A program made the position numbers and the translations under genes. Below, piece by piece: positions 45,022-60,675 of a stretch of DNA of 64,000 nt. Source of the stretch: Serratia nematodiphila DZ0503SBS1 (GTDB lineage Bacteria; Pseudomonadota; Gammaproteobacteria; Enterobacterales; Enterobacteriaceae); assembly GCF_000738675.1 (NCBI RefSeq), contig NZ_JPUX01000001.1, positions 3,658,001 to 3,722,000 of the forward strand. The letters are read 5' to 3'. The notes beneath the pieces were generated by a model that worked only from the letters and a program-made list of their open reading frames with translations, was not told the origin of the DNA and made no database searches. Positions within the stretch are counted from its first letter, which is position 1. Every line of letters starts with the position of its first letter.

Positions 45022-45312
45022 ATGGAGCTAATCAAATTGGATCTTATAATGGAAATAGTTCTTATTGTCATTTTCATCCTCATTATCAGTGTGGTCTATA
45101 AAAACGCCAAGAAGAAAGGCTTGCGCACATACCACATCGTCATGCTGTTCTTGATATTTCCCCTTGCCGTATTTTTAGACTACTGCCTGCAGCGCCAAGC
45201 GATCCTTTTGGATACGGCCGCCCTGAAAACCACGGCAAGTTATGGTTTGCCGATGGCGATTATTTTTTCGTTTGTTTTATCTATCACCTCTCGCAAGAAG
45301 GAATTTAAATGA
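45022..45312 (+). CDS. Putative microcin immunity protein 1
   Basis: Up to 96 residues with three hydrophobic segments: EIVLIVIFILIISVVY, YHIVMLFLIFPLAVFLDY and GLPMAIIFSFVLSI, ending in a charged SRKKEFK tail. Size and topology match the immunity proteins of class IIb microcins such as MceB (about 95 residues). Its stop overlaps the start of the first microcin precursor (ATGA), the coupling expected for immunity and toxin. Start may be the ATG at 45022 or, with a promoter so close, the one at 45049. The immunity role is inferred from topology and position. Confidence 0.7.
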   Translation: MELIKLDLIMEIVLIVIFILIISVVYKNAKKKGLRTYHIVMLFLIFPLAVFLDYCLQRQAILLDTAALKTTASYGLPMAIIFSFVLSITSRKKEFK

Positions 45313-45596
45313 GAGCCTTAACGGAAGCTGAATTGTCGTGTATTTACGGATCCGATGGCAACGATTCTTATAATCCGACGTCACTCATTGTCGGTAGCCT
45401 GAGCACAATAGCGAAATTACCCACCCCTGTATCATTAGCCGTTGGCGTGGGCACGGAAATCGCTATTCAGGCCGCACCGCACATGCCGGTTAACGTTGCT
45501 ATTCCACAGGTTCCTATGGGCCCAACCTGGAATGGCAGTGGCGGTGGTCGCCCTTCACCTTCTTTGTCACTTTCAACACCGGACTCTTCAAATTAA
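45309..45596 (+). CDS. Class IIb microcin precursor 1 (MccE492/MccM-like)
   Basis: 95 residues. The leader MRALTEAELSCIYGS (15 residues) fits GG-type leaders of class IIb microcins, cut by the C39 exporter after GS. The mature start DGND followed by IVGSL resembles microcin M, and the segment PVNVAIPQVPMGPTWNGSG closely resembles the PVNVPIP...GPSWNGSG region of microcin E492 (from memory of those sequences). The tail is Ser/Pro-rich and ends TPDSSN, not in the Ser that carries the siderophore in E492. AAGGA lies 5 bases before the ATG. Expected to be secreted, taken up by rival cells through catecholate receptors, and to act on the inner membrane. Confidence 0.88.
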   Translation: MRALTEAELSCIYGSDGNDSYNPTSLIVGSLSTIAKLPTPVSLAVGVGTEIAIQAAPHMPVNVAIPQVPMGPTWNGSGGGRPSPSLSLSTPDSSN

Positions 45597-45676
45597 AAAA
45601 TCGCAACCCTATTCCCCTTTGTAAAACAAGGCCGAAATTTAACTTACTCTGCACCAATAAAAATAACGATTAAAAA

Positions 45677-47203
45677 ATGAAAAACCTTGCCATGCTTCAC
45701 GAAAGTTTGATTCCTTTCGTCGCAAAAAAGACAGGCTCTCAATTACTCTGGCACAATGCATTAAGCCCTGCCGAGCAGGACGAACTGAAAATAGAGGCCA
45801 GCTATCTCATCGAAGAAAATAATCGCCATGCTATTTTTGATGAGGGCACGCCGCTCTTAAACGATGAAAAAGTCTTTTTCGCCGAACGTTATGGCGGCGG
45901 CGCTATTTCGCGCAACGGCGGTGGCGCACGCTGTGGCTTTGATGGGCGATGGCAGATTAAAGGCATCGGGGCCAATGCGTTAGTCGGTCAAGGGGCCAAA
46001 CATGTCGATGGCGAGTTGACAATGACCGGTGCAGTATTGGAGGCATTATGGGGAAACGTCATGGCCAAACTGCTGCCTTATGGCGCCGTGCCCAATAAGG
46101 CAATCTTGCTGACCGACAGCCCCATTGCCACCCTCTATTCTGCATCGGCAGGAGGCCCCCATAACCGCAAGGCGTTGCTGGTGCGCGAGCCCGTCGTTCG
46201 CCCTGCACATTTTTGCCGCGCGCCTTACTATCATCCTCATGATGCGATGCAAAGGCAACCTTCGGATATTGAGCGGACCGAAAAACTCATTGTCGCCGCA
46301 CCTTCTTTTCTGCCTCGTCCCTCTGAGTTTGACGCTGCACACTGGTTGGCATTGCCCCAGGAAGAACGCGCATTCTACGGGCTCTGCGAGCTTGCCCGGC
46401 GTCTTGCGACGCAGATCGCTTACTGCCGTACCCGCCATTTGGTAATGATGACCTCCCCCTCCAATTGCGATATGGCTGGCAGGCTGTTGGACTTTCATGG
46501 TGTTCGCAGTGTTTTTCCCGCAGAACGTCGCGATCCCGGACGCAGCTACATTCAACACAACAAACTCAACGAAGACGCCCCTTTGTTGCTGAGAGGCGTG
46601 CAAGATCTCGCTTTTTATTTAGCCAAGCATCAATTCGGCCCGGTATTTCTCGCGGCAGCGCACCAAGGCATCGGCGCCGCCTTTAATATGGCCTACAATC
46701 GGGCCTGCCTGCTGGATAATCTCGGTATGGCGGGTTTTGACCCTGCATTCTTACAACGCCTGCCCCTCACCGCCGAGTGGTTCGCCTTAGGCGAACGCTT
46801 GCAAAAAATGTTCGATTTGGCTCCCGGCGTCTTTACCCGTCGACAAGGCCTGGGCCAGGGAAATGCGCATCCGGCGATTGCCCTGTTGCACCGGCTCATC
46901 GACACGGCCGTAAAGGTCCCCACCGAACAACAGGGTGCGACCGCGGAGGAGAGATTTTCTCTGGCATTCCATCGGTTATGCGCGAAGTACCTTCAGGAAA
47001 CATCAGCAGGCCAAACCGCCGCCGGATTACAGCAGGCGATGAAGCAGACAGTCACCAGAAGGTTGGGCTCCCGCACGTTCATGCGCCGTGAAGTGATTTT
47101 TCAAGACATTACCAGCTGGCGCGGCGAAGTCAGCGAGATCACCGAACAATTGCAAACCTATCTGGATCGTTTCGAGCGCCAGGCGATCAACGTATTACAA
47201 TAA
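45677..47203 (+). CDS. MceJ/MchC-like microcin maturation protein
   Basis: 508 residues. A glycine-rich segment, ERYGGGAISRNGGGARCGFD, and then QIKGIGANALVGQG near residue 90, resembles MchC/MceJ proteins and loosely the SelO-type nucleotide-binding lobe. In the E492 system MceJ works with MceI to join the siderophore moiety to the microcin C-terminus. The next gene is an MceI-like protein 18 bp downstream, reproducing the conserved mceJ-mceI pair. The ribosome site is weak (AT-rich). Assignment rests on size, the pair and recalled similarity. Confidence 0.72.
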   Translation: MKNLAMLHESLIPFVAKKTGSQLLWHNALSPAEQDELKIEASYLIEENNRHAIFDEGTPLLNDEKVFFAERYGGGAISRNGGGARCGFDGRWQIKGIGANALVGQGAKHVDGELTMTGAVLEALWGNVMAKLLPYGAVPNKAILLTDSPIATLYSASAGGPHNRKALLVREPVVRPAHFCRAPYYHPHDAMQRQPSDIERTEKLIVAAPSFLPRPSEFDAAHWLALPQEERAFYGLCELARRLATQIAYCRTRHLVMMTSPSNCDMAGRLLDFHGVRSVFPAERRDPGRSYIQHNKLNEDAPLLLRGVQDLAFYLAKHQFGPVFLAAAHQGIGAAFNMAYNRACLLDNLGMAGFDPAFLQRLPLTAEWFALGERLQKMFDLAPGVFTRRQGLGQGNAHPAIALLHRLIDTAVKVPTEQQGATAEERFSLAFHRLCAKYLQETSAGQTAAGLQQAMKQTVTRRLGSRTFMRREVIFQDITSWRGEVSEITEQLQTYLDRFERQAINVLQ

Positions 47204-47221
47204 TAACGCTGAGGATATTTC

Positions 47222-47662
47222 GTGAGTTTTATCAAAGAAAGCCACCTGGGTAAAAGTAAGTTCAGTCAATACGAGAGCCTGGGTTTCGCCGTTAGCTGTA
47301 TGTTGATGAATAAAAATTACAGCTTATACCATATAAAAACGTTGCAGCTATGGACTCAGGAAGCGATTAATCAAAATCAATTTAAAATATTATTCGATCA
47401 TTTGGATAATCCATTGGGGTATATAACCTGGGCCTACCTTCGAGATGAGACGCTGGGCCGACTTATTAACGATCCGCAGTTTCTTCTCCATAACTCAGAG
47501 TGGGATGAAGGCGGCACGCTGTGTATTTTAGATTTTTGCTGCAAGCCAGGCAGCGCCCATTTATGTTTGGAACATCTTAAAACAGCTCACCCAGTCGCAG
47601 AACGTCGCACGGTTGTATGGCGCTCCCGCCGAACGGGAAAGCTGATGACGGCAAAAAGATAA
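47222..47662 (+). CDS. MceI/MchD-like protein, HlyC-type acyltransferase family
   Basis: 146 residues from a GTG at 47222 with GAGGA upstream. It follows the toxin-activating acyltransferase (HlyC/RtxC) pattern: LGFAVSCMLMNKNYSLYHIK with the candidate catalytic His, then NPLGYITWAYLRDE, SEWDEGGTLCILDFCC with the candidate catalytic Asp, and a TVVWRSRRTGK C-terminus. In class IIb microcin loci the homologue MceI/MchD joins the post-translational moiety to the peptide C-terminus together with MceJ. No RTX toxin is adjacent, so lysine acylation of a toxin is the less likely role. Confidence 0.8.
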   Translation: MSFIKESHLGKSKFSQYESLGFAVSCMLMNKNYSLYHIKTLQLWTQEAINQNQFKILFDHLDNPLGYITWAYLRDETLGRLINDPQFLLHNSEWDEGGTLCILDFCCKPGSAHLCLEHLKTAHPVAERRTVVWRSRRTGKLMTAKR

Positions 47663-47689
47663 AGAAAAATAACTATCAGGGATGAGGCG

Positions 47690-50600
47690 ATGAGCAAGCA
47701 TCAATTATTGGATTCACAAGTTGGATTTTACTATGGCACCAAGATCGGCGATGACAAATCGGGCTATAACATCGCGGAATATGTCGAAATAAATCACACT
47801 CTCGATATCGCAAGAATGAAACGCGCCATTCATCGTGTCATCAGCCAAACGCCGACGCTGCACGTTTTGTTTGATGAAGATAACGGCACGCCTTATCAAT
47901 ATCCCGTCACCGCCAACATCTCAGTAGAATGGGTGGATCTTTCGCAGCAGGCCGACGGTATGGCCTCCGCTATCGAATTAATGGAAGCGGATGCTGAGCG
48001 CCCCTTCTCGTTGAACGCTGCGCCGTTATTCAGACAAAAAATCATCAGGCTGGGTGAGAAACGCTTTCTGTGGTATTTCTGCAGCCACCACCTGCTGCTT
48101 GATGGTTACGGCACTTATTTGCTGATCCATCAAGTAGCGCAGGCCTACCGAGATCAGACGCAGCATCCGCAAGGCGCCCCCACGATCGATGCTTTGCTCA
48201 TGGCTGAATCTGAGTATAAACAGTCAACGACCTATCAAGCTGATAGGGATTTTTGGCAAGCGATCTGCACCTCACTGCCAGATCCGATAACGTTAGCCTG
48301 CACCAATATTCCCTCGGGACAGACAATCCGCCATGTGACGTCGTTACCCTGTCCTGCCGAACGCCTTGCACTGCAAACCGGGCACCCTTCTTGGCTGGCG
48401 CGCACTTTTGTAGCGGTGATGGCGTATTTGTACTTATGTACCGGCAAGAAGCAGCAAACGATCGGCGTACCAATGATGGCGCGAACAGACGCCCTGACGA
48501 GGCAGGCGCTGACTTGCAAGACCAACGTGGTTCCTTTGACTCTCGATATTGAGGACACCGCCTCATGCCGACAGTTGGCGCAAACCATTGAACACATACT
48601 CAAGCACCTCAAGAAACATCAGGCGTTTCGTTACGAAGAGATAAAAAGTCTGAGGAGCGTCGCCAGTCGCTCGCCGTTGTTCAACATCGTGGTCAATATC
48701 ATTCCATTTGAAGCGGCAGCCTCATTTGCTCCCGCGCAGCGCAGCGAAATCCGTAATTTACGCTCAGGAGGCGCGCAGGATCTGGTCTTCAATATGCGCC
48801 CCGATCTCGATAACCAAACGCTTAGGCTGGAGATCGATGCCGATTCAGGGCTTTACGATACGGCCAGCCTGGTGCGGCACTGCCGGGGGATACAAACCTT
48901 GTGCGCCTTGCTGTACGACGATCCGGAAAATCTTTCCGTCGCGGCATTGCGACAACATTTCTCGCTCTCGCTGCTGGGTAAAACCGCCAACGACAACGTG
49001 GTCGATATAATGCAACGTATCGAACGTGCCGCTATTCAAGCGCCGCAACGCGCGGCGATCCTCACGCCTGCACACGCTTCGTCACCGCTCAGAACACTGT
49101 CTTATGCCGTCCTGCAGCAACAGTGGCATGCACTGGCCGATGCCCTGACCCCTGCTCGCGCCGCGCACACCGTGCTGTTGCTCGACTTGCCGCAAGGGCC
49201 GGAAGCCATCATCTGCATGCTTGCTGCGCTGCAATTGAAAATGCCGTTCGTCAACCTGAATGCCAAAGGGGATGGAGCGTCTCATCATCAGCTGCTTGAA
49301 CAGTTTAGCGACGCTATCCTGATTACCGATCGCACTCTGCCCTCCTTTCATTCCGAACCTGACGCATTGGCGCATTGGCACGCATCGACACTCGATATGC
49401 CGACGGATTTCGCGCGCTTCACCGTGTTTCGCCGACAAACATCGACCGAGGCGCCAGCGTTCCCGGCCGGAACCGGCTATCTCATGTTTACCTCCGGCTC
49501 GACAGGAATGCCTAAAGGCGTGATAGGAGCCCGACATGCTCTCAACGTTTTTGTCGATGCGGCGATAAAATGCTATGGCATTCAACCGCACGAACGCGTG
49601 TTGCAATTTGCGCCCTTGCATTTCGATGCCTGCATTGAAGAAATTTTCATGACGCTGGGTGCCGGCGCCCACCTGTGTATCGCCCCCGAGACCGTCAAGC
49701 ATAACTTTGCCGCGTTATTCACATTCTGCGCCGACCATCAAATCAGCCTGTTGGATCTGCCGACCGCCTACTTTAATGAGATGCTGTTCGCCTCCGGCGG
49801 TGAACAGACACTGCCGCCGACCGTCACTACCGTCATCATCGGCGGTGAAAACCTTTCACCGCGTGCCAAAGAACGCTGGTTCGCGCGCTATCCCAAAGGC
49901 ATAAAGTTATTCAACTCTTATGGCCCAACCGAGACAACCGTGGTGGCGACGGCCGCGGAGATCAAAAACGATGGCGCCGCGGTGACGATAGGCACACCGC
50001 TGGACGGTATATACACGGCAATCGTCGGCGAGGATCTCAGGCTGTTGCCGCTCGGCTGCAGTGGCGAATTACTGATCGTCGGGGCTACCGTCGGCCTGGG
50101 CTATTTGCATCAGCCAACGCTGAGCGCGGAAAAGTTCGTCACCTTTGAGGTCAACGGCCATCTCATGCCCGCCTTTCGCACCGGCGATATCGCCTGCCAG
50201 CTTCAAGATGGGCAGTTGGTGTTCCTTGGGCGCAAAATACGTGAAGCGAAAATCGCCGGGCAGCGCGTCAATATGGGTGAAATAGAAAGTTGTCTGGCCC
50301 GGTTGCCCTCAATTATCGAGATTGCCGTGCTGGCCAAAAGCGGCGATGCGGGAACGGAACTTTACGCGCATTATCACAGCCGGCAGCCACTCAGTGAGGC
50401 AATGCGCCGCACACTGTATGGCGCATTGCCCAATGCTCATATTCCTCAGCGCTTCGTGCATCATCTAACGCCGCTGGCCAAACTGGCTAACGGCAAGATT
50501 GATTATCACACCCTGGAAAGGCAATCCCGGATGCCCGAACCCACACGGGAATTACGTTCGACGACCTTCAACACCCTGGTGCATGAGGTTTGGCTGGCGA

Positions 50601-51496
50601 CGCTGGGCAGTGACGATGGCGACTTCTTCACGCTCGGCGGCGACTCCCTTCAGGCTATAAAAATCATTAACGCGCTTAACGCACACTGCCAGTTGGATCT
50701 GAACCTGAGCGACATTTTTGAACATCCAAGACTTGCCGATTTTTGCCGACACCTAACGCAATTGGCCCATGCACGCTACGGCCTGGATCAGCAGCATCTG
50801 GACATCCGTTGCGCTATCGGCCGCTGTCTATCAACCGAGGCGCCGACCAGCAACCGGCTGTTTATTCAATCTCCCGAAGGCGCAGATGAACGGCTTTTGT
50901 TAGCCGCCCTCGCTGACAAGCACGGTGTGGACATTCTGTCGCCGCAGGCGCTGCCGTTGCATGCTGATTGGCCGCTGAACGCGATCATATTCAACGTACC
51001 GAACGAAGCCACGCAATATGCACCTTGGCTCGACGCGCTTTCGGCCCTGCTGCATTCCCTGCCGGACCGAGTTAACTACATGATATTTATGCATGATACG
51101 GTAGGCGGCGCCAATCTCACGCAAGGCCTGTTGCACGATTTTCGGCATGAGCGGCTGCTGTTGCTGCATAAAGTCAATTCGCGCCAGCAAGCCGTCGACG
51201 CCGGCGTTACTGAGTTGATAACCCTTTCTGCACGGCTTGGCTATTTCCCGCACATCCGGTTCGATACGGCCAATGAGCGATTGAACGGTTGCGTACTGAA
51301 GATCTTCGGTTTCGAAGATGGTGACAACATCGATCATCGCGCCGCCTTCACAATGGCGCAGCGGAGAAACCCGGGAGTGCAGTTGTGTAGCTTGTCACAT
51401 TGGCTGAATCTGATTTCCGCCCACAGCGACAAACGCCCGAATAAAAGCGGTCGAACAGGGAAAGCTATCAACGTCAACATGGAAGGAGTGCACTGA
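47690..51496 (+). CDS. NRPS 1: C-A-PCP plus unknown C-terminal domain
   Basis: 1268 residues. The condensation domain (about 8-430) opens like EntF and has HHLLLDG at 133-139. The adenylation domain (about 450-960) has A3 TSGSTGMPKG at 601, FDACIEE at 645, SYGPTE, FRTGDI and ANGKIDY. Specificity residues read by eye against GrsA give about D-A-E-D-I-G-S-V-V, a pocket with acidic residues that would suit a basic residue such as Lys; tentative. PCP LGGDSL has Ser986. Residues about 1030-1268 match nothing I know. No loading module lies upstream, so the first C domain must take an acyl donor from elsewhere, as EntF takes dihydroxybenzoate. AGGGA precedes the ATG; ends in a 1-bp overlap with NRPS 2. 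Confidence 0.92.
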   Translation: MSKHQLLDSQVGFYYGTKIGDDKSGYNIAEYVEINHTLDIARMKRAIHRVISQTPTLHVLFDEDNGTPYQYPVTANISVEWVDLSQQADGMASAIELMEADAERPFSLNAAPLFRQKIIRLGEKRFLWYFCSHHLLLDGYGTYLLIHQVAQAYRDQTQHPQGAPTIDALLMAESEYKQSTTYQADRDFWQAICTSLPDPITLACTNIPSGQTIRHVTSLPCPAERLALQTGHPSWLARTFVAVMAYLYLCTGKKQQTIGVPMMARTDALTRQALTCKTNVVPLTLDIEDTASCRQLAQTIEHILKHLKKHQAFRYEEIKSLRSVASRSPLFNIVVNIIPFEAAASFAPAQRSEIRNLRSGGAQDLVFNMRPDLDNQTLRLEIDADSGLYDTASLVRHCRGIQTLCALLYDDPENLSVAALRQHFSLSLLGKTANDNVVDIMQRIERAAIQAPQRAAILTPAHASSPLRTLSYAVLQQQWHALADALTPARAAHTVLLLDLPQGPEAIICMLAALQLKMPFVNLNAKGDGASHHQLLEQFSDAILITDRTLPSFHSEPDALAHWHASTLDMPTDFARFTVFRRQTSTEAPAFPAGTGYLMFTSGSTGMPKGVIGARHALNVFVDAAIKCYGIQPHERVLQFAPLHFDACIEEIFMTLGAGAHLCIAPETVKHNFAALFTFCADHQISLLDLPTAYFNEMLFASGGEQTLPPTVTTVIIGGENLSPRAKERWFARYPKGIKLFNSYGPTETTVVATAAEIKNDGAAVTIGTPLDGIYTAIVGEDLRLLPLGCSGELLIVGATVGLGYLHQPTLSAEKFVTFEVNGHLMPAFRTGDIACQLQDGQLVFLGRKIREAKIAGQRVNMGEIESCLARLPSIIEIAVLAKSGDAGTELYAHYHSRQPLSEAMRRTLYGALPNAHIPQRFVHHLTPLAKLANGKIDYHTLERQSRMPEPTRELRSTTFNTLVHEVWLATLGSDDGDFFTLGGDSLQAIKIINALNAHCQLDLNLSDIFEHPRLADFCRHLTQLAHARYGLDQQHLDIRCAIGRCLSTEAPTSNRLFIQSPEGADERLLLAALADKHGVDILSPQALPLHADWPLNAIIFNVPNEATQYAPWLDALSALLHSLPDRVNYMIFMHDTVGGANLTQGLLHDFRHERLLLLHKVNSRQQAVDAGVTELITLSARLGYFPHIRFDTANERLNGCVLKIFGFEDGDNIDHRAAFTMAQRRNPGVQLCSLSHWLNLISAHSDKRPNKSGRTGKAINVNMEGVH

Positions 51497-54400
51497 TGAG
51501 CGTCATCGGCCTGATCAATCTGATGGAACTGGCGAAACAGGGAGCAACATTCGGCGAGCTGTCGCCTCGCCGCCAAACCATCGAGCATGTCGACGCCGCC
51601 GTACTCCGTACGGTGCAGGAAGACATCATCGCCTTTTTATCTGTCTGCGCGCCAGATAATTCAGAGCGACACACCGGGGAGAAGCCGTGTTACACCGTCA
51701 ATCACTACGCGGGGCAATACCTGTGGCTGTATGAAAACTTCACCAAGAACAGCCCGCTGTATAACATTCCAATCGCCAAAGAGATTCTGGGGGACTTTGA
51801 ACCCGCGCGTTTGCTCGCTGCGCTGAAAAAACTGCTCAAGCGACACGGCGCGCTTTGCGGTCGCTACCGGCTCGACGGTGAAACCATCACCGTTGACATT
51901 GCGCATCCTGATGAAACCATTTTCGAACACTGCCTCGAGGACATCAGCGGTCTGAATAGTGAAGAGCAGCAAGAAAGTATACTGGCGGCGCTTAACGCCC
52001 AGTGTACGATGCCGTTTGACCTCGGTGCTGAGTATCCCCTGCGCTGCCGAATCTTGAGAAAGAGCGCGCAGCACCACTATCTCTTCTTGACCTTTCACCA
52101 TTGCGTGGTCGACGGCTGGACGGCCAATTTGCTGGTGGATGAACTGAGCCGTGATTATCAAGCGCACGAAGCGCATTGCCATTATGACAACGGTCAGGCT
52201 TTTTTCCGGTTTCTTGAGGATCCTTTCCTCGCCGTCGCCAATGTCGATGACAGCCTGGCATTTTGGCGCGATGAACTGGATGGTGCGCCGGAAAAACACG
52301 CGCTTGAATACGATATCGCCATCACGGAGGCAGGCAAAACGCAGAATATCGTCAGAACATCGCTGGCGGACGAACTGCAGCCAGTGCTGACTCAGTTAGC
52401 CAAACATAACGGTACGACGCTGTTTACGCTGTTGCACTCCGCCTTCGCCTTACTGATTGCCAGAGCATCGGCGACGGATCGCGTGGTCATCGGCAGCCCG
52501 ATCGCCAACAGGAACGAGCCGACGTTAAACAGCGCCGTGGGCAGCTTCGTCAACACGGTCGCTCACCAATTTCGCGTCACTGGCGACGACAGTTTCACCA
52601 CGCTGCTGCAGAAGAACGCGAATAAATTTGCGCGCGCCTTCAAACATCAGGGGTTGCCCTTCTCTTACCTGGTTGAACAACTCAAGCCCACGCGCGGCAA
52701 GTTCCACCCCATTTTTCAAATCATGTTCGTCTGCCAACATCGCAAAAGCAACGAACTGAATGTTGGCCGTGCACAGGTTAACACCCTGCCGAGACGCTAT
52801 GCGCCGCCCAAGTTTGATTTGGTGCTGGAAGTGATTTCCGGCGCAGAGGGCATTCTGTTGGAGTGGCAATACAACGCCAAGCTGTTTACGCCGGAGCGCA
52901 TTAACGGATTGGCGCAAGCTTACGCATTGCTGTTGCAGCAAATTGCCTGTGATCCTTCGCGGGCCGTCGACCACTATTCGCTGGCGCCAATGGCCGATAA
53001 CCGGCAATTGCGACAGCTCTCCGTCGGGCAGGCGATGCCAGCATGCTTGCGGCAACCTCTTTCTGATCGGCTGTTACGCGCTGCCCACCAGCATACGGAT
53101 CGCCCGGCGTTGTTCGAGGGCGACCAGGTGTGGCATTACGATCGGCTATTGCACCACGCCGGCCTCGTGGCGCATTGGCTGATAGCCCATACCGCCCCAG
53201 GCGCACTCATCGCCATCGATCTTCCACGCGGCGCTCATCAAGCTATTGCGGCGCTCGGCGTGATCCTCGCCGGACGCGCCTACTTGCCGTTGGCCGAAGG
53301 ATTGCCGGATGCCCGCGTAGCGGCCATTATGCGAATATCGGGTTGCGCCTGGGTTTTGAGCAACCTGGCTCACCATCGCGCCCGCTATCCGCAGACAACC
53401 CGCGTTCAGGATCTGGAGGCGCTGTTTTCCCGCCATGTCACAGGCACAGCGCCCTTCCCGCCAGGCGAAGCAGAAGCGCTCGCGTATGTTATTTATACGT
53501 CGGGGACGACCGGCACGCCAAAAGGCGTGGCTATGGAACACGGCGCCGTCACCAACACCCTACTGACCATGAACCGACTGTTTAACGTCTCTCATCGTGA
53601 CAACGTATTGGCTCTCGCCGACCTGGCCTTCGATTTATCGGTCTATGACCTGTTCGGCAGTTGGCTAGCCGGCGCATCGGTAACGGTGTTATCGCCGCAC
53701 CACGCTAAAGAGCCGTCAGCATGGCTACATGCGATACGCCAGCGGCAAATCAGCATCTGGAACTCGGTTCCCGCCATCTTGCAAATGCTGGTGCAATATT
53801 GTGCACAAGAAAACATCCTGTCGCTGCCTCAACTGCGGCATATTTGGCTGAGCGGCGATCGTATCTCTCCGCGGCTGATCGCCCAGGCACATCAGCTTTG
53901 CCCCAACGCCACCATCACCAGTCTTGGTGGTGCCACCGAAGGGGCAATATGGTCAATTTATCATCCAGTTACACGGGATACGCACTACAGAAACGCCATC
54001 CCCTATGGAACCGCATTGCCGAATCAGAGCATGTGGGTGTTGAATGAAAAACTTGAGCCGTGCGGTTTCGGCGTTACCGGCGACATTTATATCGGCGGCG
54101 TTGGCGTTGCCCGCGAGTATTGGCGGGATAGGCAAACCACCGCCGGCAGCTTTGTTCTTTTCCCAACTACCGGTGAACGCGTGTACCGCACCGGCGATCG
54201 CGGCCGTTGGCACCGCAGCGGTTATATCGAGTTTCTCGGCCGCGAAGACCAACAGGTGAAACTGCAAGGTTTTCGCGTCGAATTGGGTGACGTCGAATTC
54301 GCACTCAAAAGCAGCAAACTGGTCGCTGAAGCATGTGTCCTCTGTCGCGATGAAACCGGGAACGGCACACCGTATCTGGAAGCCTATATCACATTGACCG

Positions 54401-55638
54401 AGGCGGGAAAAGCCAGCGTCCAGGCGGAGCGAAGAATACGCGAAGAGGTTACGGCCGTATTGCCCGCGTATATGGCGCCATCCCGATATCATCTCATTGA
54501 ACGTTTCCCGCTTTCACGCAACGGCAAATTGGATCGCACCTTGCTATCGCCAGGAACCGAGCGGAGTCAGGCCAGCGATGCGGCTGCGCCAGCCGCATCC
54601 GCGGAGCTCATGCTGCTACGAGAGCTGTTGGCGGATACGTTAGGCTGTACTCCAGACAAGATCGACCCACATGCCAGTTTCTTCAGCAATGGCGGCAGCT
54701 CGCTTTCCGGCATCACGTTTTTGGGCAACATCAAGCGCGCCCTTAATGTGGAATTAACCCTGGCGGAAATCCTTGGCTACTCACAGCTCGATAAACTTGC
54801 CGAGCGTCTGCGCGATAGCGCACCCCTGCCGTTATCGATGCTGTCCGGCGCAGCCGATCGCTCCTCCCTGCCCACCTTGTATTTGGTGCATGGTGCCGGT
54901 GGTCAGGTGCATCAATATGCAAAGTGGACAAAACAGCTTTGCGCCTGCGCCAACATCATCACCATCGCCAGTCCGGGATTGGCCGCGCCAGGTGCAGACG
55001 ACACACTCACCCTGCAGCGATTGGCCGCCTCTCATTTGGCGGCCATACCGCGTGCCAAACGCGACACTGCCGTTATCGCCGGCTGGTCATTGGGCGGCCA
55101 ATTAGCTGTCCATATAGCGGCGCAGGCGACGGAACAAGGCGCGCCTTTTGCGCATGTGGTGGTTGTCGACAGCGGTTTGCCCGCCCGGCAACCCTCAGTG
55201 AATCGACGTTTCAGCGTGGCGCAAAGTTACCTCAGTCTGTTCGACTCTCTCGGTATTGCGCGACATTTGTGTCGGCATCAAGCAACGAATGCGATAGACA
55301 GCTTCGCCAACGAGATAAAAATGCACTATGCGCTGAATCAGAGCGTGCTTGCGGAGAAGATCACGCTGGAACATGCCGAAGCCTTTTGTTGGGCGCTGAA
55401 AAAATCGTTTGAACTGACGAATAACGCCGGTCCTTTGCCGCAGATAGCGATACCGCTTACGCTTTGGCTCAGCCAGCAACGTCAGCGTAAACAGCCCAAT
55501 CTTGCACAACGCTGGGAGAGGCAATCCTCACATGGCGTTCAACTCACCTATTGTGCAGAAACGCATTACAGCATTTTAAACAACGCTCAACTTCTTGAAG
55601 CGCTAACGCGGCTGCTCCGCTCGTTGTCAACATCATGA
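51496..55638 (+). CDS. NRPS 2: docking-C-A(Cys-like)-PCP-thioesterase
   Basis: 1380 residues. Residues 1-60 look like a TubC-type docking domain. The condensation domain (about 75-500) has a normal HHCVVDG at 201-207, not a cyclisation motif. The adenylation domain (about 530-1010) has A3 TSGTTGTPKG at 668, FDLSVYDLFG and the GGATEG..WSI motif; the code reads D-L-Y-N-W-S-L-I-W, one change from the cysteine code. PCP GGSSL has Ser1069. The type I thioesterase (about 1120-1380) has LVHGAGG, nucleophile Ser1198 in GWSLGG, Asp in VVDSGLP and the His in AETHYS, and should release the product. GGAAGGAG precedes the start, which overlaps the NRPS 1 stop. Confidence 0.93.
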   Translation: MSVIGLINLMELAKQGATFGELSPRRQTIEHVDAAVLRTVQEDIIAFLSVCAPDNSERHTGEKPCYTVNHYAGQYLWLYENFTKNSPLYNIPIAKEILGDFEPARLLAALKKLLKRHGALCGRYRLDGETITVDIAHPDETIFEHCLEDISGLNSEEQQESILAALNAQCTMPFDLGAEYPLRCRILRKSAQHHYLFLTFHHCVVDGWTANLLVDELSRDYQAHEAHCHYDNGQAFFRFLEDPFLAVANVDDSLAFWRDELDGAPEKHALEYDIAITEAGKTQNIVRTSLADELQPVLTQLAKHNGTTLFTLLHSAFALLIARASATDRVVIGSPIANRNEPTLNSAVGSFVNTVAHQFRVTGDDSFTTLLQKNANKFARAFKHQGLPFSYLVEQLKPTRGKFHPIFQIMFVCQHRKSNELNVGRAQVNTLPRRYAPPKFDLVLEVISGAEGILLEWQYNAKLFTPERINGLAQAYALLLQQIACDPSRAVDHYSLAPMADNRQLRQLSVGQAMPACLRQPLSDRLLRAAHQHTDRPALFEGDQVWHYDRLLHHAGLVAHWLIAHTAPGALIAIDLPRGAHQAIAALGVILAGRAYLPLAEGLPDARVAAIMRISGCAWVLSNLAHHRARYPQTTRVQDLEALFSRHVTGTAPFPPGEAEALAYVIYTSGTTGTPKGVAMEHGAVTNTLLTMNRLFNVSHRDNVLALADLAFDLSVYDLFGSWLAGASVTVLSPHHAKEPSAWLHAIRQRQISIWNSVPAILQMLVQYCAQENILSLPQLRHIWLSGDRISPRLIAQAHQLCPNATITSLGGATEGAIWSIYHPVTRDTHYRNAIPYGTALPNQSMWVLNEKLEPCGFGVTGDIYIGGVGVAREYWRDRQTTAGSFVLFPTTGERVYRTGDRGRWHRSGYIEFLGREDQQVKLQGFRVELGDVEFALKSSKLVAEACVLCRDETGNGTPYLEAYITLTEAGKASVQAERRIREEVTAVLPAYMAPSRYHLIERFPLSRNGKLDRTLLSPGTERSQASDAAAPAASAELMLLRELLADTLGCTPDKIDPHASFFSNGGSSLSGITFLGNIKRALNVELTLAEILGYSQLDKLAERLRDSAPLPLSMLSGAADRSSLPTLYLVHGAGGQVHQYAKWTKQLCACANIITIASPGLAAPGADDTLTLQRLAASHLAAIPRAKRDTAVIAGWSLGGQLAVHIAAQATEQGAPFAHVVVVDSGLPARQPSVNRRFSVAQSYLSLFDSLGIARHLCRHQATNAIDSFANEIKMHYALNQSVLAEKITLEHAEAFCWALKKSFELTNNAGPLPQIAIPLTLWLSQQRQRKQPNLAQRWERQSSHGVQLTYCAETHYSILNNAQLLEALTRLLRSLSTS

Positions 55639-55687: not shown

Positions 55688-55873
55688 ATGAAATTACCCA
55701 GCAGTTGGATTTTTTTGTTCTGTTTTTACTATACATTCATGGACATTTTTTATTCGTTATTTTTTACCGAAGACAGGAGGTTTACCAGCACAATCATTCA
55801 ATCCTTTATCTTTTCAACCTTGCTAGTGGCATTTTTCTGGTATCGGAAAACTGCAAAAAACAAACACCAATAA
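55688..55873 (+). CDS. Putative microcin immunity protein 2
   Basis: 61 residues with two hydrophobic segments (SSWIFLFCFYYTFMDIFY and QSFIFSTLLVAFFWY) and a basic tail, an inner-membrane hairpin. It lies 15 bp before precursor 2 and starts 50 bp after NRPS 2, with GAGG upstream. Position and topology suggest immunity to precursor 2; no homologue recognised. Confidence 0.65.
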   Translation: MKLPSSWIFLFCFYYTFMDIFYSLFFTEDRRFTSTIIQSFIFSTLLVAFFWYRKTAKNKHQ

Positions 55874-55888
55874 TATAAGGAAGTAGTT

Positions 55889-56149
55889 ATGAGAGAGCTT
55901 ACAATTAATGAAGTTAACTTTATCGCGGCCGCTGGGGATTTCAGCTATGCGGAATTGGGCGGGGCCGTCGCTGCCGGCGCGGTTGGTGGCGCGATGACCG
56001 GCGCCATGGCCGGCGGTGTCGGTGCCGGCCCAGGCGCTGTTGCCGGTGCCGTTATCGGTGGTGCCGCCTATACCGCTGGCAAAATGGTGGAATCCATGTT
56101 AGGTGGCAATAAACAAACATCGACGAATAATCCTGCCGACAGTAACTAA
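55889..56149 (+). CDS. Class IIb-type microcin precursor 2
   Basis: 86 residues. The leader MRELTINEVNFIAAA (15 residues) is the classic microcin V/E492 type. The mature part is rich in Gly and Ala (ELGGAVAAGAVGGAMTG and following), giving a long hydrophobic, membrane-active core, and ends with a polar tail NNPADSN. The final Asp-Ser-Asn is shared with precursor 3, and precursor 1 ends Ser-Ser-Asn. AAGGAAG lies 7 bases before the ATG. Expected to be cut and exported by the 56859..60237 transporter. Confidence 0.85.
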   Translation: MRELTINEVNFIAAAGDFSYAELGGAVAAGAVGGAMTGAMAGGVGAGPGAVAGAVIGGAAYTAGKMVESMLGGNKQTSTNNPADSN

Positions 56150-56173: not shown

Positions 56174-56341
56174 ATGAAAAAGTTACTCATTATCTTGTTC
56201 GCCATTTTAATTGGGCTTATTGCTGGCACGATTGCGGATTATTTCACCCTCAATCGTTTCTTGAAATACGCTCTTATCGCCTTTGCCGTTATCGTCACGC
56301 ATAAATTGCTCAATAGCGATCGCGGGCAACGCACGGCATGA
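56174..56341 (+). CDS. Putative microcin immunity protein 3 (55 residues)
   Basis: A short gene from the ATG at 56174 to the TGA at 56341. The protein begins MKKLLIILFAILIGLIAGTI and has a second hydrophobic stretch YALIAFAVIVTHKLL, ending in a polar tail. It lies between precursors 2 and 3, 42 bp before precursor 3, repeating the immunity-then-microcin order of the other two pairs. Below common ORF length limits, so easily missed. Ribosome site weak. Confidence 0.68.
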   Translation: MKKLLIILFAILIGLIAGTIADYFTLNRFLKYALIAFAVIVTHKLLNSDRGQRTA

Positions 56342-56383
56342 TGAATGTGGCTTATTTTAAAATTTAATGATTAAGGAAAAAAT

Positions 56384-56671
56384 ATGCGCAATCTTACCTC
56401 TGAAGAATGTTCAATCATTTCCGGTGCAGGAGATCGCAGCGGTACATTGACGGTTTCCGCAGAAACTGTCGGCGCAGCGATCGGCGGTGGCATCGGTTCT
56501 ATCGGCGGCGTCGCAGGCGGCGTTGTCGGCACCATTGTCGGCGGTGCTGTCGGGAACTATGTCACCGGCGATCGCGCTCCCGGCTCTATTGGCCCATCAG
56601 GCATTCCCTGGGGCGGGAGTAACGGCGGCGGTACCATGTGGGGAAACAACAACAATACCGATTCGAACTGA
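56384..56671 (+). CDS. Class IIb-type microcin precursor 3
   Basis: 95 residues. Leader MRNLTSEECSIISGA (15 residues, GA cut site as in E492 and H47). The mature core is Gly/Ala/Val-rich (GAAIGGGIGSIGGVAGG and following) and the C-terminal third, with GPSGIPWGGSNGGG and WGNNNNTDSN, resembles microcin M around PSGI (from memory) but ends in Asn-rich sequence in place of a Ser-rich tail. AAGGA lies 7 bases before the ATG. Last gene of the plus-strand operon; a strong terminator follows. Confidence 0.85.
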   Translation: MRNLTSEECSIISGAGDRSGTLTVSAETVGAAIGGGIGSIGGVAGGVVGTIVGGAVGNYVTGDRAPGSIGPSGIPWGGSNGGGTMWGNNNNTDSN

Positions 56672-56745
56672 TCGAGGCTCTGCAAGTCTCGCGGCTGACC
56701 TCAGCGGTTAACGCTGGCTTCAGCGTCTAAACATCACTTCATGCC

Positions 56746-56772
56746 AGGGTTATCATTGTGATAACCCTTTTT
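56746..56772 (+). terminator. Rho-independent terminator of the microcin operon
   Basis: AGGGTTATCA-TTG-TGATAACCCT, a perfect 10-bp stem, followed by TTTTT. It lies 75 bp after precursor 3 and 87 bp from the convergent exporter gene stop. Confidence 0.9.
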
Positions 56773-56858
56773 GTCATGGGCTCACACCACAGGGTGAGCT
56801 GCGCGTTTGGCGTAGCGAAAATGTCGAGGTGAAAAAGACAGGTAAAGCGACGCTGGCG

Positions 56859-58958
56859 TTATCCGAGCCGAATGACTCTATCCGCAGAGGCAATCGTCGA
56901 TGGACGGTGTGCAATAATCACGCGGGTAATGTTCAGTTGTGAAATAGCGCGGTTAATATGTGTTTCATTATCGAGATCCAGGTGGCTGGTCGCTTCGTCC
57001 ATAAACAGAATGCTGGGGCGACGATAGAGCGCGCGGGCTATCAATAAACGCTGTTTCTGCCCGCCAGAAAGGCTTCCCCCCAACTCGCCGATCAATGTTT
57101 CGTAGCCCATCGGCATGTTTTGAATATCATCATGCATATTGCAACGCTGTGCGCACGCCTCAATACGTTTCAGATCCATTTCGGCGTCAAATCCTGAAAT
57201 ATTTTCAGCGATAGATCCCGCCAGCAGCTTGTCATCCTGCAGCACGCAAGCGATACATTGGCGATAATTATTTACGCCAATGTTGCTGATATCCATACCG
57301 TCGACCAACACGGCCCCTTCATCTGGAGACAGCAGCCCACACATTAACTTCATCAACGTGGTTTTACCCACGCCGGAGGGACCGACAATCGCCACGCTTT
57401 CTCCCGCCGCAATGCTGAGATTCAAATCCGCGATAATGGGTTTCGCCAAACGATCATACTGGTAGCGCAAATTCCGCACCTGAAGCTCTGCGGCGTTGCC
57501 TTTTGTGAACAGCTGACGCGCGGGCATTTGCGGTTCCGGTGACGACAGCACAATGTCAGCCACCCTTTCATTATGCAAACTTAGCATTCGCAGCTGAAGC
57601 ATCATGTCAATCAGGCTGCTGGCACGCTCCGAGAACTGACCACGGTAGGCGTTAAACGCGATAAACATCCCGATCGTCATTTGATTGTCTATGACCAATG
57701 CCGCGCCGAGCCAAAGGATGATCACCTGATCACAGGTGGCAATAAACGCCCCCAACCCGCCAAACATCATGTTTAACTTGGTCAGCTTGATACCGGCATT
57801 GATCGTTTCTACGTTTAGATTCAGCCAATACTGCGAACGGGTTTCAGATAACCCCAACGCCTTTAACGTACTGACGCTATATAACGTCTCCATGAAATGC
57901 GACCCTGCCCGCGCGCCCTTCACCAACTGCTCTTCCGACAGCTGCCGATAATGTTGATAAGTCGACAGCCTGAGAATGACGTATATCGCCGTAAAGCCGA
58001 GCACCACCCAAACTAACCAGCCGCCATAGAGCAACATCATGATAAATACCCCTACAGACATGATGCCATCAATAATGCTGCTGACGATGCTGGTAGTGAA
58101 AGTCGCTCTTATCGTATCCAATGAGCCGAAACGGGATTGAATATCACCCAACTTGCGCTTCTCAAAGAAGGAAAGCGGCAATTTCATCAGATGATCAAAC
58201 ACGCCAGCCTTCCATTGCACGTCTATCAACGCGCCCATGACGATAGAGATCCACGAGCGCAACATGGAAACGCCGGTGCGGAATAAAATAAAGAACAGCA
58301 ATCCTATACATATCAGCGCCAAAAGATCATGATCGCCGGCCAAAATCACATGATCCATGACCAACTGCGTACCGACGGGCAACAGCAGATTAACCGCTTC
58401 AATTACGATCGACAGGCAGAAGATCTTTAGCAAGGCCCCCTTGAGGCCGCGCACATTGCTCATCAGCTTGCGAAAACGCAATCTGCTTTGCTGTTTGATC
58501 GGCTGAAATTCACTGTCTGGCCATAGCTCAAGCGCTACGCCAGTAAAATGCCGCGACAGTTCATGCAACCCCAGCACTTTACGGCCAAAAGCAGGATCAT
58601 GGATCACCGCCCGCCCTCGGCTGACACTGACAAGCACCACGAAATGCTTCATGTCCCAATGCAGAATACAGGGCATTTTCAACGCTTTAAGCTCATCGAT
58701 ATTCAACGATAACGCTCTGGATTGCAGTTTCAGTGCGCTCGCGATGTCAATCAATGCGGACAGCGTTGCCCCGCGTGAAGAAAAGCCGTAGCGGCTGCGC
58801 AGATTAAACAGATCGATTTGCAAACCATGGTAATGGCATACCATCGCTAAACTGGCCAGCCCGCATTCCGAGGCTTCAGTTTGCAGGATCTGCGGCACTT
58901 TGCGGCGCAGCGACAAATTGAGTTTGCCCTTTAGCGCGTCTAAATACGATTCAGTCAT
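56859..58958 (-). CDS. C39 peptidase-containing ABC exporter (CvaB/MceG type), system 2
   Basis: 699 residues. The C39 peptidase domain carries QTEASECGLASLAM (Cys), HWDMKHFVVL (His) and IHDPAFG (Asp). Membrane helices run about 165-430. The ATPase has [30 protein letters not shown] and a switch His in IIAHRPS. It would clip the 15-residue leaders of the three microcin precursors and export them with the adjacent HlyD-like adaptor and TolC. Its ATG overlaps the HlyD-like gene by 8 bp, as in system 1, and the two exporters are clear paralogues. Confidence 0.95.
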   Translation of the reverse strand: MTESYLDALKGKLNLSLRRKVPQILQTEASECGLASLAMVCHYHGLQIDLFNLRSRYGFSSRGATLSALIDIASALKLQSRALSLNIDELKALKMPCILHWDMKHFVVLVSVSRGRAVIHDPAFGRKVLGLHELSRHFTGVALELWPDSEFQPIKQQSRLRFRKLMSNVRGLKGALLKIFCLSIVIEAVNLLLPVGTQLVMDHVILAGDHDLLALICIGLLFFILFRTGVSMLRSWISIVMGALIDVQWKAGVFDHLMKLPLSFFEKRKLGDIQSRFGSLDTIRATFTTSIVSSIIDGIMSVGVFIMMLLYGGWLVWVVLGFTAIYVILRLSTYQHYRQLSEEQLVKGARAGSHFMETLYSVSTLKALGLSETRSQYWLNLNVETINAGIKLTKLNMMFGGLGAFIATCDQVIILWLGAALVIDNQMTIGMFIAFNAYRGQFSERASSLIDMMLQLRMLSLHNERVADIVLSSPEPQMPARQLFTKGNAAELQVRNLRYQYDRLAKPIIADLNLSIAAGESVAIVGPSGVGKTTLMKLMCGLLSPDEGAVLVDGMDISNIGVNNYRQCIACVLQDDKLLAGSIAENISGFDAEMDLKRIEACAQRCNMHDDIQNMPMGYETLIGELGGSLSGGQKQRLLIARALYRRPSILFMDEATSHLDLDNETHINRAISQLNITRVIIAHRPSTIASADRVIRLG

Positions 58959-60237
58959 TGATTGGCCCCATCAGGCTGTTTTTCATATCGTAGAAAGGTG
59001 AGAACATCCATTGATATAAAGGTCTTTTTTCCAAAAACAGCGTGGATTGGGCCCGCATGCCGTTAGTGAGCTGCAACGCTTTGCCCTGGTAACTGATATG
59101 CGTTTCATCCAGGGAAACGGTCACCTTGTAAAAAGATGCCGTTTGCACGCTGGGCTGATGCACGGGAGAACTGCTGTAAGTTGACATTTCTTGAATGGAG
59201 GCCGGTACATAAGCAATGCTTTCTATCCTGCCGGGAAACTGGCCGAACTTCTCATAAGGGAAAGCGTCATAGCGAATGTTAATGCCGTCCCCTGCTGAAA
59301 CATAGGGCACACTGGTGTTCGGCAACCATAAAACTAGCTGATAAATCGCGCCATTACGTGGAATAATCTGTACCAAGCTGTCACCGCTATTGACCATCTG
59401 ACCCGGCGTAACGCTGAGAGACTCAATACGGCCATCGCTCGGGGCGTTCACGATCAATGCGCCGCTGGCATCGGCTTCCGCTAACTGCCGTTGCAAATCA
59501 TTGCGCTGAAACTCGTACTGCGAAATTTGGTTATCGAAATCCGCCGCGCGCGTAACGATGTCACTTTCCAAATTCGTAATTTGCAGTGATTCCTGAATAT
59601 GTTGACTATGCAGGTTTTGAAACAGGCTTTGTTGTTGATAAAACGAATAGGTTTGTCCGCTAAGCTGATCTTTGGTAATCAGACCGCGCTGTTGATATTC
59701 CTTATAGGAACGCATGTTGTCCTGAGCAAATGCCACCCCTTCCCGCGCGTTATCCAACAGCTGTTTGGACTGCATGTGCGCCAATTCATACTGTTTTTTT
59801 TGCGCGCGTAGATTTTCCAGCGTCATGCGCTTGTTGTCTTGCAACTTAAGAATGATGCTGTCGACGTGTTTTAACTGGTTTTCAAGCGCCAGGCGCGTAT
59901 TGGCGCTCACTTTCCCGTTATCCGTCACTCGGCTGACATCAATCTGATAAAGACGCTGGCCTTTTTTAACCGCATCCCCCACTTCGACGAAGCGTTCCGA
60001 GATAAAACCCTGTTGGGGCGCAAACACGTTGACTGAGCGGGGGAAGGTGGTGATTTCACCATAAACATTAATGCGGCGTGTATAATGACTGAATATAAGA
60101 AAAGAGAGGAAAACAAGAATAAATAAAAACGATAAAAGACCAAAACACCAGGCGGGCAAGCCGTTTATCAATAAGGCCTTACCCGCCCATTTCGCCCGCT
60201 GATGATCCGTGGCTTCCTGTCGAAACAAATCACGCAT
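58951..60237 (-). CDS. HlyD/CvaA-family membrane fusion protein, system 2
   Basis: 428 residues from MRDLFRQEATDHQRAKWAGK. One N-terminal helix (LPAWCFGLLSFLFILVFLS), a barrel segment beginning RRINVYGEITTFP, a long periplasmic coiled coil (about 125-250), and a C-terminal [20 protein letters not shown]. The frame extends to 60312, but AAGGGA 4-5 bases before the ATG at 60237 and alignment with system 1 fix the start. A Fur-box match lies about 120 bp upstream, so export is probably iron-controlled. Confidence 0.95.
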   Translation of the reverse strand: MRDLFRQEATDHQRAKWAGKALLINGLPAWCFGLLSFLFILVFLSFLIFSHYTRRINVYGEITTFPRSVNVFAPQQGFISERFVEVGDAVKKGQRLYQIDVSRVTDNGKVSANTRLALENQLKHVDSIILKLQDNKRMTLENLRAQKKQYELAHMQSKQLLDNAREGVAFAQDNMRSYKEYQQRGLITKDQLSGQTYSFYQQQSLFQNLHSQHIQESLQITNLESDIVTRAADFDNQISQYEFQRNDLQRQLAEADASGALIVNAPSDGRIESLSVTPGQMVNSGDSLVQIIPRNGAIYQLVLWLPNTSVPYVSAGDGINIRYDAFPYEKFGQFPGRIESIAYVPASIQEMSTYSSSPVHQPSVQTASFYKVTVSLDETHISYQGKALQLTNGMRAQSTLFLEKRPLYQWMFSPFYDMKNSLMGPIND

Positions 60238-60675
60238 GAAATCCCTTTCCAGAAATAAAATTCGCGCCAGCCTTGGCTCGTAAAATGCAGAAGCATATCG
60301 AAAAAGCAGCAACAGAGATTAAAACAGGCCTGTTGTTTTTAATTAGCGATATCGTAAGGATAATTATTCTCATTATGATATCGGGCGTCCCGAAGAAATG
60401 CAATGTTTTTTACGCACTTATCCAGCCACATAGCCGTATATCACTATGCATATCGATAAAAAACCAATAAAGAGCCTCCTAATCAAATAACCCTATTTAT
60501 TCTACCTCCCATCATGTGCAATAAATAATCATGCGCTACCCTTGATTGTCTATTTTTCATCCACAAGGCGTGCAGCAATAACGTTATCAAGGCTTTCACT
60601 TCCTTATCATTGAAATTGCCGCCACGCGGTGTCGGCGTATTCCGACATGCCTTTGCGCCAACGCCGCGAATGAAA
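60238..60675. other. Intergenic region upstream of the microcin exporter
   Basis: 438 bp with no convincing gene. AT-rich. It holds the exporter's control region, including the Fur-box match at 60359-60377. Past guaD's stop a short minus-strand open stretch (about 60480-60660) has no start or recognisable product. Confidence 0.6.
60359..60377. promoter_or_regulatory. Fur box
   Basis: GATAATTATTCTCATTATG matches 15 of 19 positions of the Fur consensus GATAATGATAATCATTATC. It lies about 120 bp before the HlyD-like start of the microcin exporter. Iron-starvation control is standard for siderophore-type microcins. Confidence 0.78.

Follow-up and report, generated by a model that had tools for sequence, protein, structure and literature searches.

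Introduction

The class IIb microcins (E492, H47, I47, M and G492) carry Ser/Gly-rich C-termini that end in Ser and, as reviews describe them, use enterobactin tailored by an IroB-type glucosyltransferase. In E492, salmochelin is attached to Ser84 by MceJ and MceI, according to the accessible text of PMC6071977, and in known systems the two proteins work at the peptide C-terminus (PMC7472721 and PMC6071977, available portions); PMC7472721 calls the precise function of the pair unknown. Here we analyse a microcin locus at 45022-60377 of a 64,000-nucleotide stretch of Serratia nematodiphila DZ0503SBS1 (the whole stretch, hereafter the window; source genome 5.2 Mb, G000). The locus resembles class IIb loci in its leader type, an E492-group precursor, the MceJ/MceI pair, a C39-ABC/HlyD exporter and a Fur box. 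It differs in that the precursor tails read D-S-(x)-N, in that it has its own pair of nonribosomal peptide synthetases (NRPSs), and in that no MceC/IroB-type gene was found in the host or the other genomes with this locus type and no esterase in the locus.

The gene set itself has been published. For S. marcescens Db11 and SM39, the available text of Parker et al. (2026; PMC13101503) shows three co-located microcins, SM027, SM017 and SM051 (in 56%, 43% and 55% of microcin-bearing assemblies), together with an exporter, an NRPS, an AMP-binding protein, a lysine-acyltransferase, MchC and Dcp; the NRPS, AMP-binding protein, lysine-acyltransferase and MchC are treated as potential modification genes. 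The class IIb tail was seen there in 0 of 93 microcins, and a possible undefined subclass was mentioned. An earlier note on this DNA had stated that its author knew of no system described with such genes, a statement that the publication does not bear out. In gene set and arrangement, as far as that text describes them, the Db11/SM39 locus equals that of the window and is very likely its orthologue, the identity of its precursors with mic1-3 resting on gene order. A comparable analysis of the gene set (domains, specificity, product) was not found in the open-access literature, preprints excluded, and the words 'nonribosomal' and 'NRPS' occur 0 times in the main texts of PMC11634061 and PMC9746304. 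New here are the comparisons of precursor tails, NRPS codes, the Fur box and a second type of locus (type B).

The best explanation for this locus is that a dedicated NRPS pair, of predicted chemistry, replaces borrowed, glucosylated enterobactin in a class IIb-like setting. From sequence comparison, we put the probability that MceI and MceJ (MceIJ) join the NRPS product to these microcins at roughly 0.7. The earlier note had proposed such a C-terminal modification; it is favoured by the tails, the failure to find an IroB-type gene, an EntF-type condensation domain, host EntB, the Fur box, the tie of NRPS1 to the locus, the omega values of MceJ, MceI and both NRPSs, and the NRPS beside MceJ-MceI in type B, and the attachment itself is the part that we infer.

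Results

Layout of the microcin locus

As the earlier note had listed, three precursors, three immunity-like open reading frames (ORFs), MceJ and MceI, two NRPS genes and a C39-ABC/HlyD exporter are all present in 45022-60377. The plus-strand genes form an 11.6-kb run in the order imm1-mic1-MceJ-MceI-NRPS1-NRPS2-imm2-mic2-imm3-mic3, and the features are as follows, with C for condensation, A for adenylation (code in brackets), PCP for peptidyl carrier protein and TE for thioesterase domains.

45022-45312, plus strand: imm1, 96 aa, hydrophobic, immunity-like; orthologues 89-94% in four Serratia loci
45309-45596, plus strand: mic1, 95-aa precursor of the E492 group, C-terminus TPDSSN; 64.1 bits on NF051486
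45677-47203, plus strand: MceJ/MchC homologue (P0003), 508 aa; 36% identity to an annotated MchC
47222-47662, plus strand: MceI homologue, 146 aa, GTG start, HlyC-type acyltransferase; 43 bits on PF02794
47690-51496, plus strand: NRPS1, C (EntF-type)-A (DAEDIGSVV)-PCP, then a C-terminal region from about residue 1030
50762-51496, plus strand: C-terminal region of NRPS1, without a Pfam family over the cut-off; 54% identity to G070
51496-55638, plus strand: NRPS2, N-terminal region of ~70 aa, then C-A (DLYNWSLIW)-PCP-TE
55688-55873, plus strand: imm2, 61 aa, immunity-like; 95% in four Serratia loci
55889-56149, plus strand: mic2, 86-aa precursor, C-terminus NPADSN; homologue in NRPS-free locus L031
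56174-56341, plus strand: imm3, 55 aa, immunity-like; by-eye likeness to L028:11148-11294, which adjoins the mic3 homologue
56384-56671, plus strand: mic3, 95-aa precursor, C-terminus NNTDSN; homologue in NRPS-free locus L028
56746-56768, plus strand: terminator-like hairpin 3' of mic3, 10-pair stem and T run
56859-58958, minus strand: C39-peptidase ABC exporter, 699 aa; PF03412 (113.7 bits), PF00664, PF00005
58951-60312, minus strand: HlyD-type membrane fusion protein, ORF from TTG; likelier ATG near 60237
60359-60377, minus strand: Fur box 5' of HlyD, 16/19 consensus bases

The earlier note had described what looked like one 11.6-kb operon here. The tight packing of the plus-strand genes (imm1 and mic1 overlap by 4 nt, NRPS1 and NRPS2 by 1 nt, and gaps are at most ~80 nt) makes the run likely to be a single operon; the exporter, on the minus strand and convergent to it, is a separate unit. 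Loci of the window's type are called type A below.

Precursor tails

On the NCBIfam model E492_microcin (NF051486, cut-off 50), mic1 scores 64.1 bits, and mic2 (13.4 bits) and mic3 (16.5 bits) stay under the cut-off; both are homologous to precursors of other loci. All three are class II (double-glycine type) precursors, mic1 by the model and mic2 and mic3 by homology. None has a Ser/Gly-rich C-terminus ending in Ser: they end in DSSN, ADSN and TDSN. The bodies match and the tails hardly do when mic3 is set against the precursor of the NRPS-free locus L028 (53 of 84 body columns identical, 0 of 8 in the tail) and mic2 against that of L031, likewise NRPS-free (42/77 and 1/8). The pair of mic1 and the L032 precursor is weaker (30/79 and 2/8).

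The fourth type A precursor, from a genome of another genus (G070; L026:14352-14561), has the C-terminus DDSTN. When the last six residues are aligned, the type A tails share 1-4 residues among themselves (6 pairs) and 0-1 with five other precursors (20 pairs), which share 2-5 among themselves (10 pairs). The final residue is Asn in 4/4 type A precursors and Ser in 5/5 others, a small sample; Ser is likewise the last residue of two more precursor-like ORFs, each of 86 aa, in L029 and L031. Taken together, these comparisons suggest that the Ser/Gly tail was swapped for D-S-(x)-N in step across three precursor families.

The two 86-aa ORFs (L029:15874-16504, L031:12157-12784) form a further precursor-like family with a Ser end, each lying after an ORF of 125-128 aa without a Pfam match.

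Domains and predicted product of the NRPS pair

NRPS1 consists of C-A-PCP followed by ~240 aa without a Pfam match, and NRPS2 of C-A-PCP-TE. In a tree of 15 C domains, found by motif in the host genome, K-12 EntF and the microcin loci and lacking a characterised fatty-acyl starter reference, the C domain of NRPS1 clusters with K-12 EntF, the host's EntF-type enzyme and two type B enzymes (support 99/99), while that of NRPS2 lies outside this group; an EntF-type C domain is thus present in NRPS1 only. The donor of the EntF C domain is a dihydroxybenzoyl-carrier protein.

The A-domain codes, DAEDIGSVV in NRPS1 and DLYNWSLIW in NRPS2, are identical in the window and G070. Position 278 was taken from the printed alignment, and the tenth residue of NRPS2, Lys517, was read from the sequence; position 278 so read gives K-12 EntF an H, which we take to be its known code residue. 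Neither code is the Ser code of the EntF family (DVWHFSLVD in K-12 EntF). According to the accessible part of PMC12283262, DLYNWSLIWK is one of the Cys codes and goes with an oxidised residue, and the NRPS2 code agrees with this published Cys specificity. The same text gives Arg codes as D-A/V-E-D-I/V/L-G-A-V/I-T/D-K and an Orn/Lys code as DMEDVGSVDK, which the NRPS1 code matches at 8 and 7 of 10 positions, respectively. The NRPS1 substrate is therefore likely to be a basic residue (Lys, Orn, Dab or Arg).

EntB is 72-88% identical in 11/11 genomes tested, six type A genomes included. With the EntF-type C domain and the A codes, this leads to dihydroxybenzoyl-basic-Cys as the predicted product, a structure to which we give close to an even chance of being exact. 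The pair resembles the EntF/dihydroxybenzoate siderophore NRPSs in the grouping of the NRPS1 C domain, in its C-A-PCP(-TE) logic and in the presence of host EntB, and it differs from them in having basic-like and Cys codes instead of Ser, in being split over two proteins and in the extra C-terminal region of NRPS1. An AlphaFold model of that region, built from a two-row alignment, reached a pLDDT of 39.6, too poor for a fold search.

Conservation and distribution of the type A locus

With one genome per species, the search for MceJ covered 30 genomes of the genus, 392 of the family and 394 of the order, that for NRPS1 the 30 of the genus and that for its C-terminal region the 392 of the family. 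Full-length MceJ orthologues (92-93%) and NRPS1 orthologues (91%) co-occur in the same 5/30 Serratia genomes (G000, G001, G009, G011 and G021); the five NRPS1 orthologues score at least 2649 bits, and the next among the matches listed scores 284 bits. The ten plus-strand genes and the exporter are collinear in the four other Serratia loci, L019-L022, HlyD touching the edge of the stretch in L019 and L020. In G070, the locus is more diverged (MceJ 65%, MceI 74%, NRPS1 60%, NRPS2 67%, HlyD 78%, ABC 90%), and NRPS1, NRPS2, MceJ and MceI are collinear there as in the five Serratia genomes, host included. Because the cassette is kept in five of the 30 Serratia genomes as well as in a single genome from a different genus, it is not a chance arrangement. 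The co-occurrence of MceJ/MceI with the NRPS pair that the earlier note had suggested looking for is thus borne out by these genomes.

A probe of 223 aa, taken from the NRPS1 C-terminal region, hit 4/392 family genomes (G000, G011, G021 and G070), all with the microcin locus. NRPS1 apart from a microcin locus was not found, either among the 30 Serratia genomes or with this probe among the family genomes. An NRPS pair standing alone in Serratia, which the earlier note had said would speak against its proposal, did not turn up in these samples.

Between the window and G001, omega is 0.055 for mic1, 0 for mic2 and 0.03 for mic3, 0.165 for MceJ, 0.177 for MceI, 0.177 for NRPS1 and 0.174 for NRPS2, and 0.20-0.45 for the three immunity-like ORFs; between the window and G070, synonymous sites are saturated. 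S. proteamaculans (G017, L023) retains mic1 and imm1 together with a truncated MceJ, remnants of the exporter and an ORF resembling imm3, and the 17 kb read contain no NRPS; by its gene content, this locus is a decayed cassette.

Glucosyltransferase and esterase genes

The earlier note had seen no MceC or MceD homologue, and this has held: the locus has no IroB/MceC-type gene (PF06722) and no ORF for an MceD/IroD esterase within 45022-60377. PF06722 was searched in 13 genomes. Proteins of IroB size scoring 169-197 bits occur in G180, G115, G071 and G346; these four (one an edge fragment) share 68-85% identity with each other and with a plasmid homologue, L045. We call this group IroB-like by family, size and a place beside MceJ in 3/5, an authenticated IroB not being among the proteins compared. 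Each of seven Serratia genomes of type A or B has one protein of 74-77 bits, G190 has one of 47 bits, and G070 has none. The host protein (75.5 bits) was considered as a possible IroB and rejected, as it matches the strong group only locally, at ~31-36%. An IroB/MceC-type gene was thus not found with PF06722 in the host nor, judging by similar scores, in the other type A genomes.

An enterochelin-type esterase is encoded elsewhere in the host, beside another NRPS. It belongs to another siderophore-type cluster near 3.55 Mb (L059:6091-18603), which has a 729-aa receptor-like ORF, the esterase (by Pfam) and a two-module NRPS of ~2900 aa.

The MceJ/MceI ligation pair

MceJ aligns over 99% of its length, at 36% identity, with a plasmid protein that carries the annotation MchC, and MceI is a member of Pfam HlyC (PF02794, 43 bits against a cut-off of 25) that is 45-53% identical to the MceI of aligned type B and NRPS-free microcin loci. 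K95, E122, N263 and D272 (window numbering) are invariant across 20 aligned MceJ-like proteins, and a distant family member, in L087, exceeds the Pfam SelO cut-off (28.5 bits against 22.8). The accessible text of PMC3281104 treats MchC proteins as a remote SelO subfamily. Through this family link, MceJ may be a remote SelO-type adenylyltransferase, sharing with the SelO pseudokinase adenylyltransferases the conserved Lys/Glu/Asn/Asp set and differing from them in missing the SelO model and in its substrate; by homology, it would activate the peptide carboxylate. The AlphaFold model of MceJ from a two-row alignment (pLDDT 30.5) was too poor for a fold search.

Iron regulation

The Fur box at 60359-60377 is the sole site with at most 3 mismatches in the 64 kb (0.00 expected), and it recurs at 16/19 upstream of HlyD in 4/4 other Serratia loci. 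The next best site in the window (15/19, 56176-56194) lies inside the start of the imm3 ORF and may be a chance match within coding sequence or a second iron-regulated site; 15 window sites reach 13/19. A Fur box at the imm1 promoter was rejected, the best match of 11/19 being equalled in 252/300 shuffles. In E492, according to the available text of PMC6071977, Fur binding in vivo was seen for the region whose boxes have 68% and 74% identity and not for boxes of 58% and 63%, so identity alone does not decide binding. Position and conservation favour the HlyD box (84% identity) as a predicted Fur site.

Other loci with MceJ-like genes

The genus and family searches gave an MceJ-like gene in 15 different genomes: six are of type A, four of type B, one is decayed (G017), three are NRPS-free and one lies on a short contig (G276, 3.9 kb, too short for typing). 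In G180, G346 and G071, there is no NRPS in the stretch read around MceJ. In type B (G014, G029, G115 and G190), an EntF-like C-A-PCP-TE gene stands directly 5' of MceJ-MceI, and in G190 it is interrupted; the A domains of G029 and G115, the two of four for which codes were computed, have the EntF Ser code. The type B loci (L024, L025, L027 and L029) resemble the window in having an NRPS beside MceJ-MceI and differ in having one C-A-PCP-TE gene, 5' of MceJ. The tail of the L027 precursor is an ordinary one (SAGGGS), and a precursor-like ORF in L029 ends in ANRGS. Types A and B are unlike in gene order, in the number of genes and in the codes, from which we infer that NRPSs were recruited twice, separately. 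The MceJ tree is compatible with type B as one lineage or several.

In the Serratia type B loci L024 and L025, of which 19 and 12.5 kb were read, we recognised neither a precursor nor a HlyD/C39-ABC pair of this family. Other ABC- and HlyD-like genes are present there at 26-30% identity, and the peptide substrate may be encoded elsewhere.

In the order search, 8/394 genomes match MceJ, namely the host and seven with distant MceJ-like genes; the six aligned proteins are 18-26% identical to P0003. Six distant neighbourhoods were read (G731, G680, G628, G536, G736 and G596), the first four of which have a radical-SAM-like gene and a similar GT2-like gene nearby; Pfam was run on L087, which is among these four. 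On the Klebsiella plasmid pmk4 (L048), Pfam identifies a radical SAM protein and a methyltransferase near a MceJ/MceI-like pair. MceJ/MceI may thus be a general module for peptide C-terminal ligation.

In L086, L087, L088, L091 and L048, distant MceJ/MceI-like pairs lie near radical-SAM-like and HlyD/C39-ABC-like genes; the first four also have a GT2-like gene and small Gly-rich precursor-like ORFs.

Neighbouring genes and other features

The run and the exporter sit between a Dcp-like peptidase (42521-44725, minus strand) and an amidohydrolase (60676-61998, minus strand). The former, of 734 aa, was considered as a siderophore receptor and rejected, being a Peptidase M3 protein. By ORF list and Pfam, no receptor or siderophore exporter gene was found within 45022-60377. 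Close to the locus, at 62332-63899, are a FecI-like sigma factor ORF (by eye) and a FecR protein (Pfam), and just past the window, ~4 kb beyond HlyD, is a 783-aa ORF resembling a FecA-type receptor (L106:4016-6367). None of imm1, imm2 and imm3 exceeds a Pfam cut-off, so that they are called immunity-like from their position and their hydrophobic residues. For HlyD, the ATG near 60237 is the probable start, because the 428-aa orthologues in L020-L022 begin there. Hairpins in the region are no more numerous than in shuffled sequence (21 versus 19.6).

Discussion

For this locus, the plain class IIb label is too strong. The MceJ/MceI pair and the C39-ABC and HlyD exporter of class IIb are present; the Ser/Gly tail and the C-glucosyltransferase (MceC/IroB, in locus or genome), two defining features, were looked for and not found, so the locus is not class IIb in the strict sense.

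In the pathway that we propose, host EntE and EntB would load 2,3-dihydroxybenzoate, NRPS1 would condense it with Lys, Orn, Dab or Arg, as its domain type and the A codes suggest, NRPS2 would add Cys, and the TE would release or pass on a small catechol unit. By homology, MceJ would activate the microcin C-terminal carboxylate with ATP and MceI would transfer the C-terminus to this unit, the simplest acceptor being the amine of the basic side chain, in which case no glucose would be needed. The D-S-(x)-N tail would be the recognition signal. The exporter, derepressed through Fur in iron starvation, would again by homology cut the leader and export the conjugate, which would enter rival cells via catechol-siderophore receptors. 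A fuller picture, which is tentative and to which we give rather less than an even chance, is that a purpose-built dihydroxybenzoyl-basic-Cys catechol arms only these microcins, that MceIJ couples it sugar-free, by an amide to the basic side chain, at the D-S-(x)-N tail, and that MceIJ is an interchangeable module with varied partners: glucosylated enterobactin, an EntF copy, the basic-Cys NRPS pair and, in the distant loci, radical-SAM partners.

Several results weigh against attachment of the NRPS product as we picture it. The basic-like code of NRPS1 has no exact published match, which leaves the chemistry step soft, and the ~240 aa at its C-terminus match nothing in Pfam or PHROGs and have no assigned role. 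The window MceJ has no Pfam SelO match, and its profile retrieved no SelO chain from the PDB sequences. In G070, one precursor was recognised, 5' of MceJ, and none behind NRPS2. The promoter region of the plus-strand run, which holds the maturation genes, has no Fur box (best 11/19). Finally, 3/4 type B genomes also lack strong IroB-type matches, so this absence alone is no mark of type A.

We also considered that the NRPS pair makes a free metabolite, a siderophore or signal, with the microcins exported unmodified or otherwise modified and the co-location a matter of regulatory convenience. Two features of the host would fit this: the further siderophore-type cluster near 3.55 Mb, which brings an NRPS of its own and an enterochelin-type esterase, and the receptor-like ORF ~4 kb past HlyD, accompanied by FecI/FecR-like genes. 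However, no NRPS1 apart from a microcin locus turned up in the samples searched, the gene is tightly packed in one run with MceJ/MceI while a different NRPS adjoins the pair in other loci, and 45022-60377 contains no receptor or siderophore exporter gene. We regard a free metabolite as unlikely.

Enterobactin itself might instead be linked to the microcins without glucose, the NRPS making only a linker or spacer. The host's EntF-type NRPS with a Ser code and its full EntB would permit this, and some type B genomes have an EntF-like enzyme without a strong IroB-type match. The codes of NRPS1 and NRPS2 are not Ser, however, and the pair, combining an EntF-type C domain with a terminal TE, could build a complete unit itself, which makes a linker less probable still than a free metabolite. 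The least probable case, in our estimate very improbable, is that MceIJ hands the activated C-terminus to NRPS1 and that the microcin is elongated by a basic residue and Cys, without a siderophore. NRPS1 does begin with a C domain that needs a donor, and the peptide C-terminus is where MceJ/MceI work in the systems known (PMC7472721 and PMC6071977, available portions). Against this, the Fur box points to iron. The NRPS1 C domain, moreover, groups with EntF, whose donor is the dihydroxybenzoyl-carrier protein. Attachment of a catechol made by the NRPS pair thus remains the preferred reading.

The zone-of-inhibition (ZOI) assays of Parker et al. bear on the need for modification. In the available text of PMC13101503, the ZOI-positive microcins encoded in target strains are SM008, SM020 and SM064. 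SM017, SM027 and SM051 are encoded in eight target strains, and the text takes them up together with the tested set of Fig. 3A. Because the ZOI-positive list omits these three, we read the text as meaning that they gave no zone when secreted without modification genes, which we count in favour of attachment. Twelve microcins inhibited the E. coli secretor, and the three, unmodified, may or may not be among them, a point we count with those against attachment. If they are, the unmodified peptide would act as a toxin within the cell, and the modification could still have its role in uptake.

In summary, comparative sequence evidence indicates that the locus is a real, conserved variant of the siderophore-microcin theme and gives good grounds for a C-terminal modification made by the NRPS pair. 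If this is true, a carrier of the locus's own and a matching change of the tail would show that the ligation pair of class IIb microcins can be re-targeted, and the tail and enzyme pair would offer a testable route to peptide-siderophore conjugates. It could also explain the seeming inactivity of the commonest S. marcescens microcins in zone assays without modification genes.

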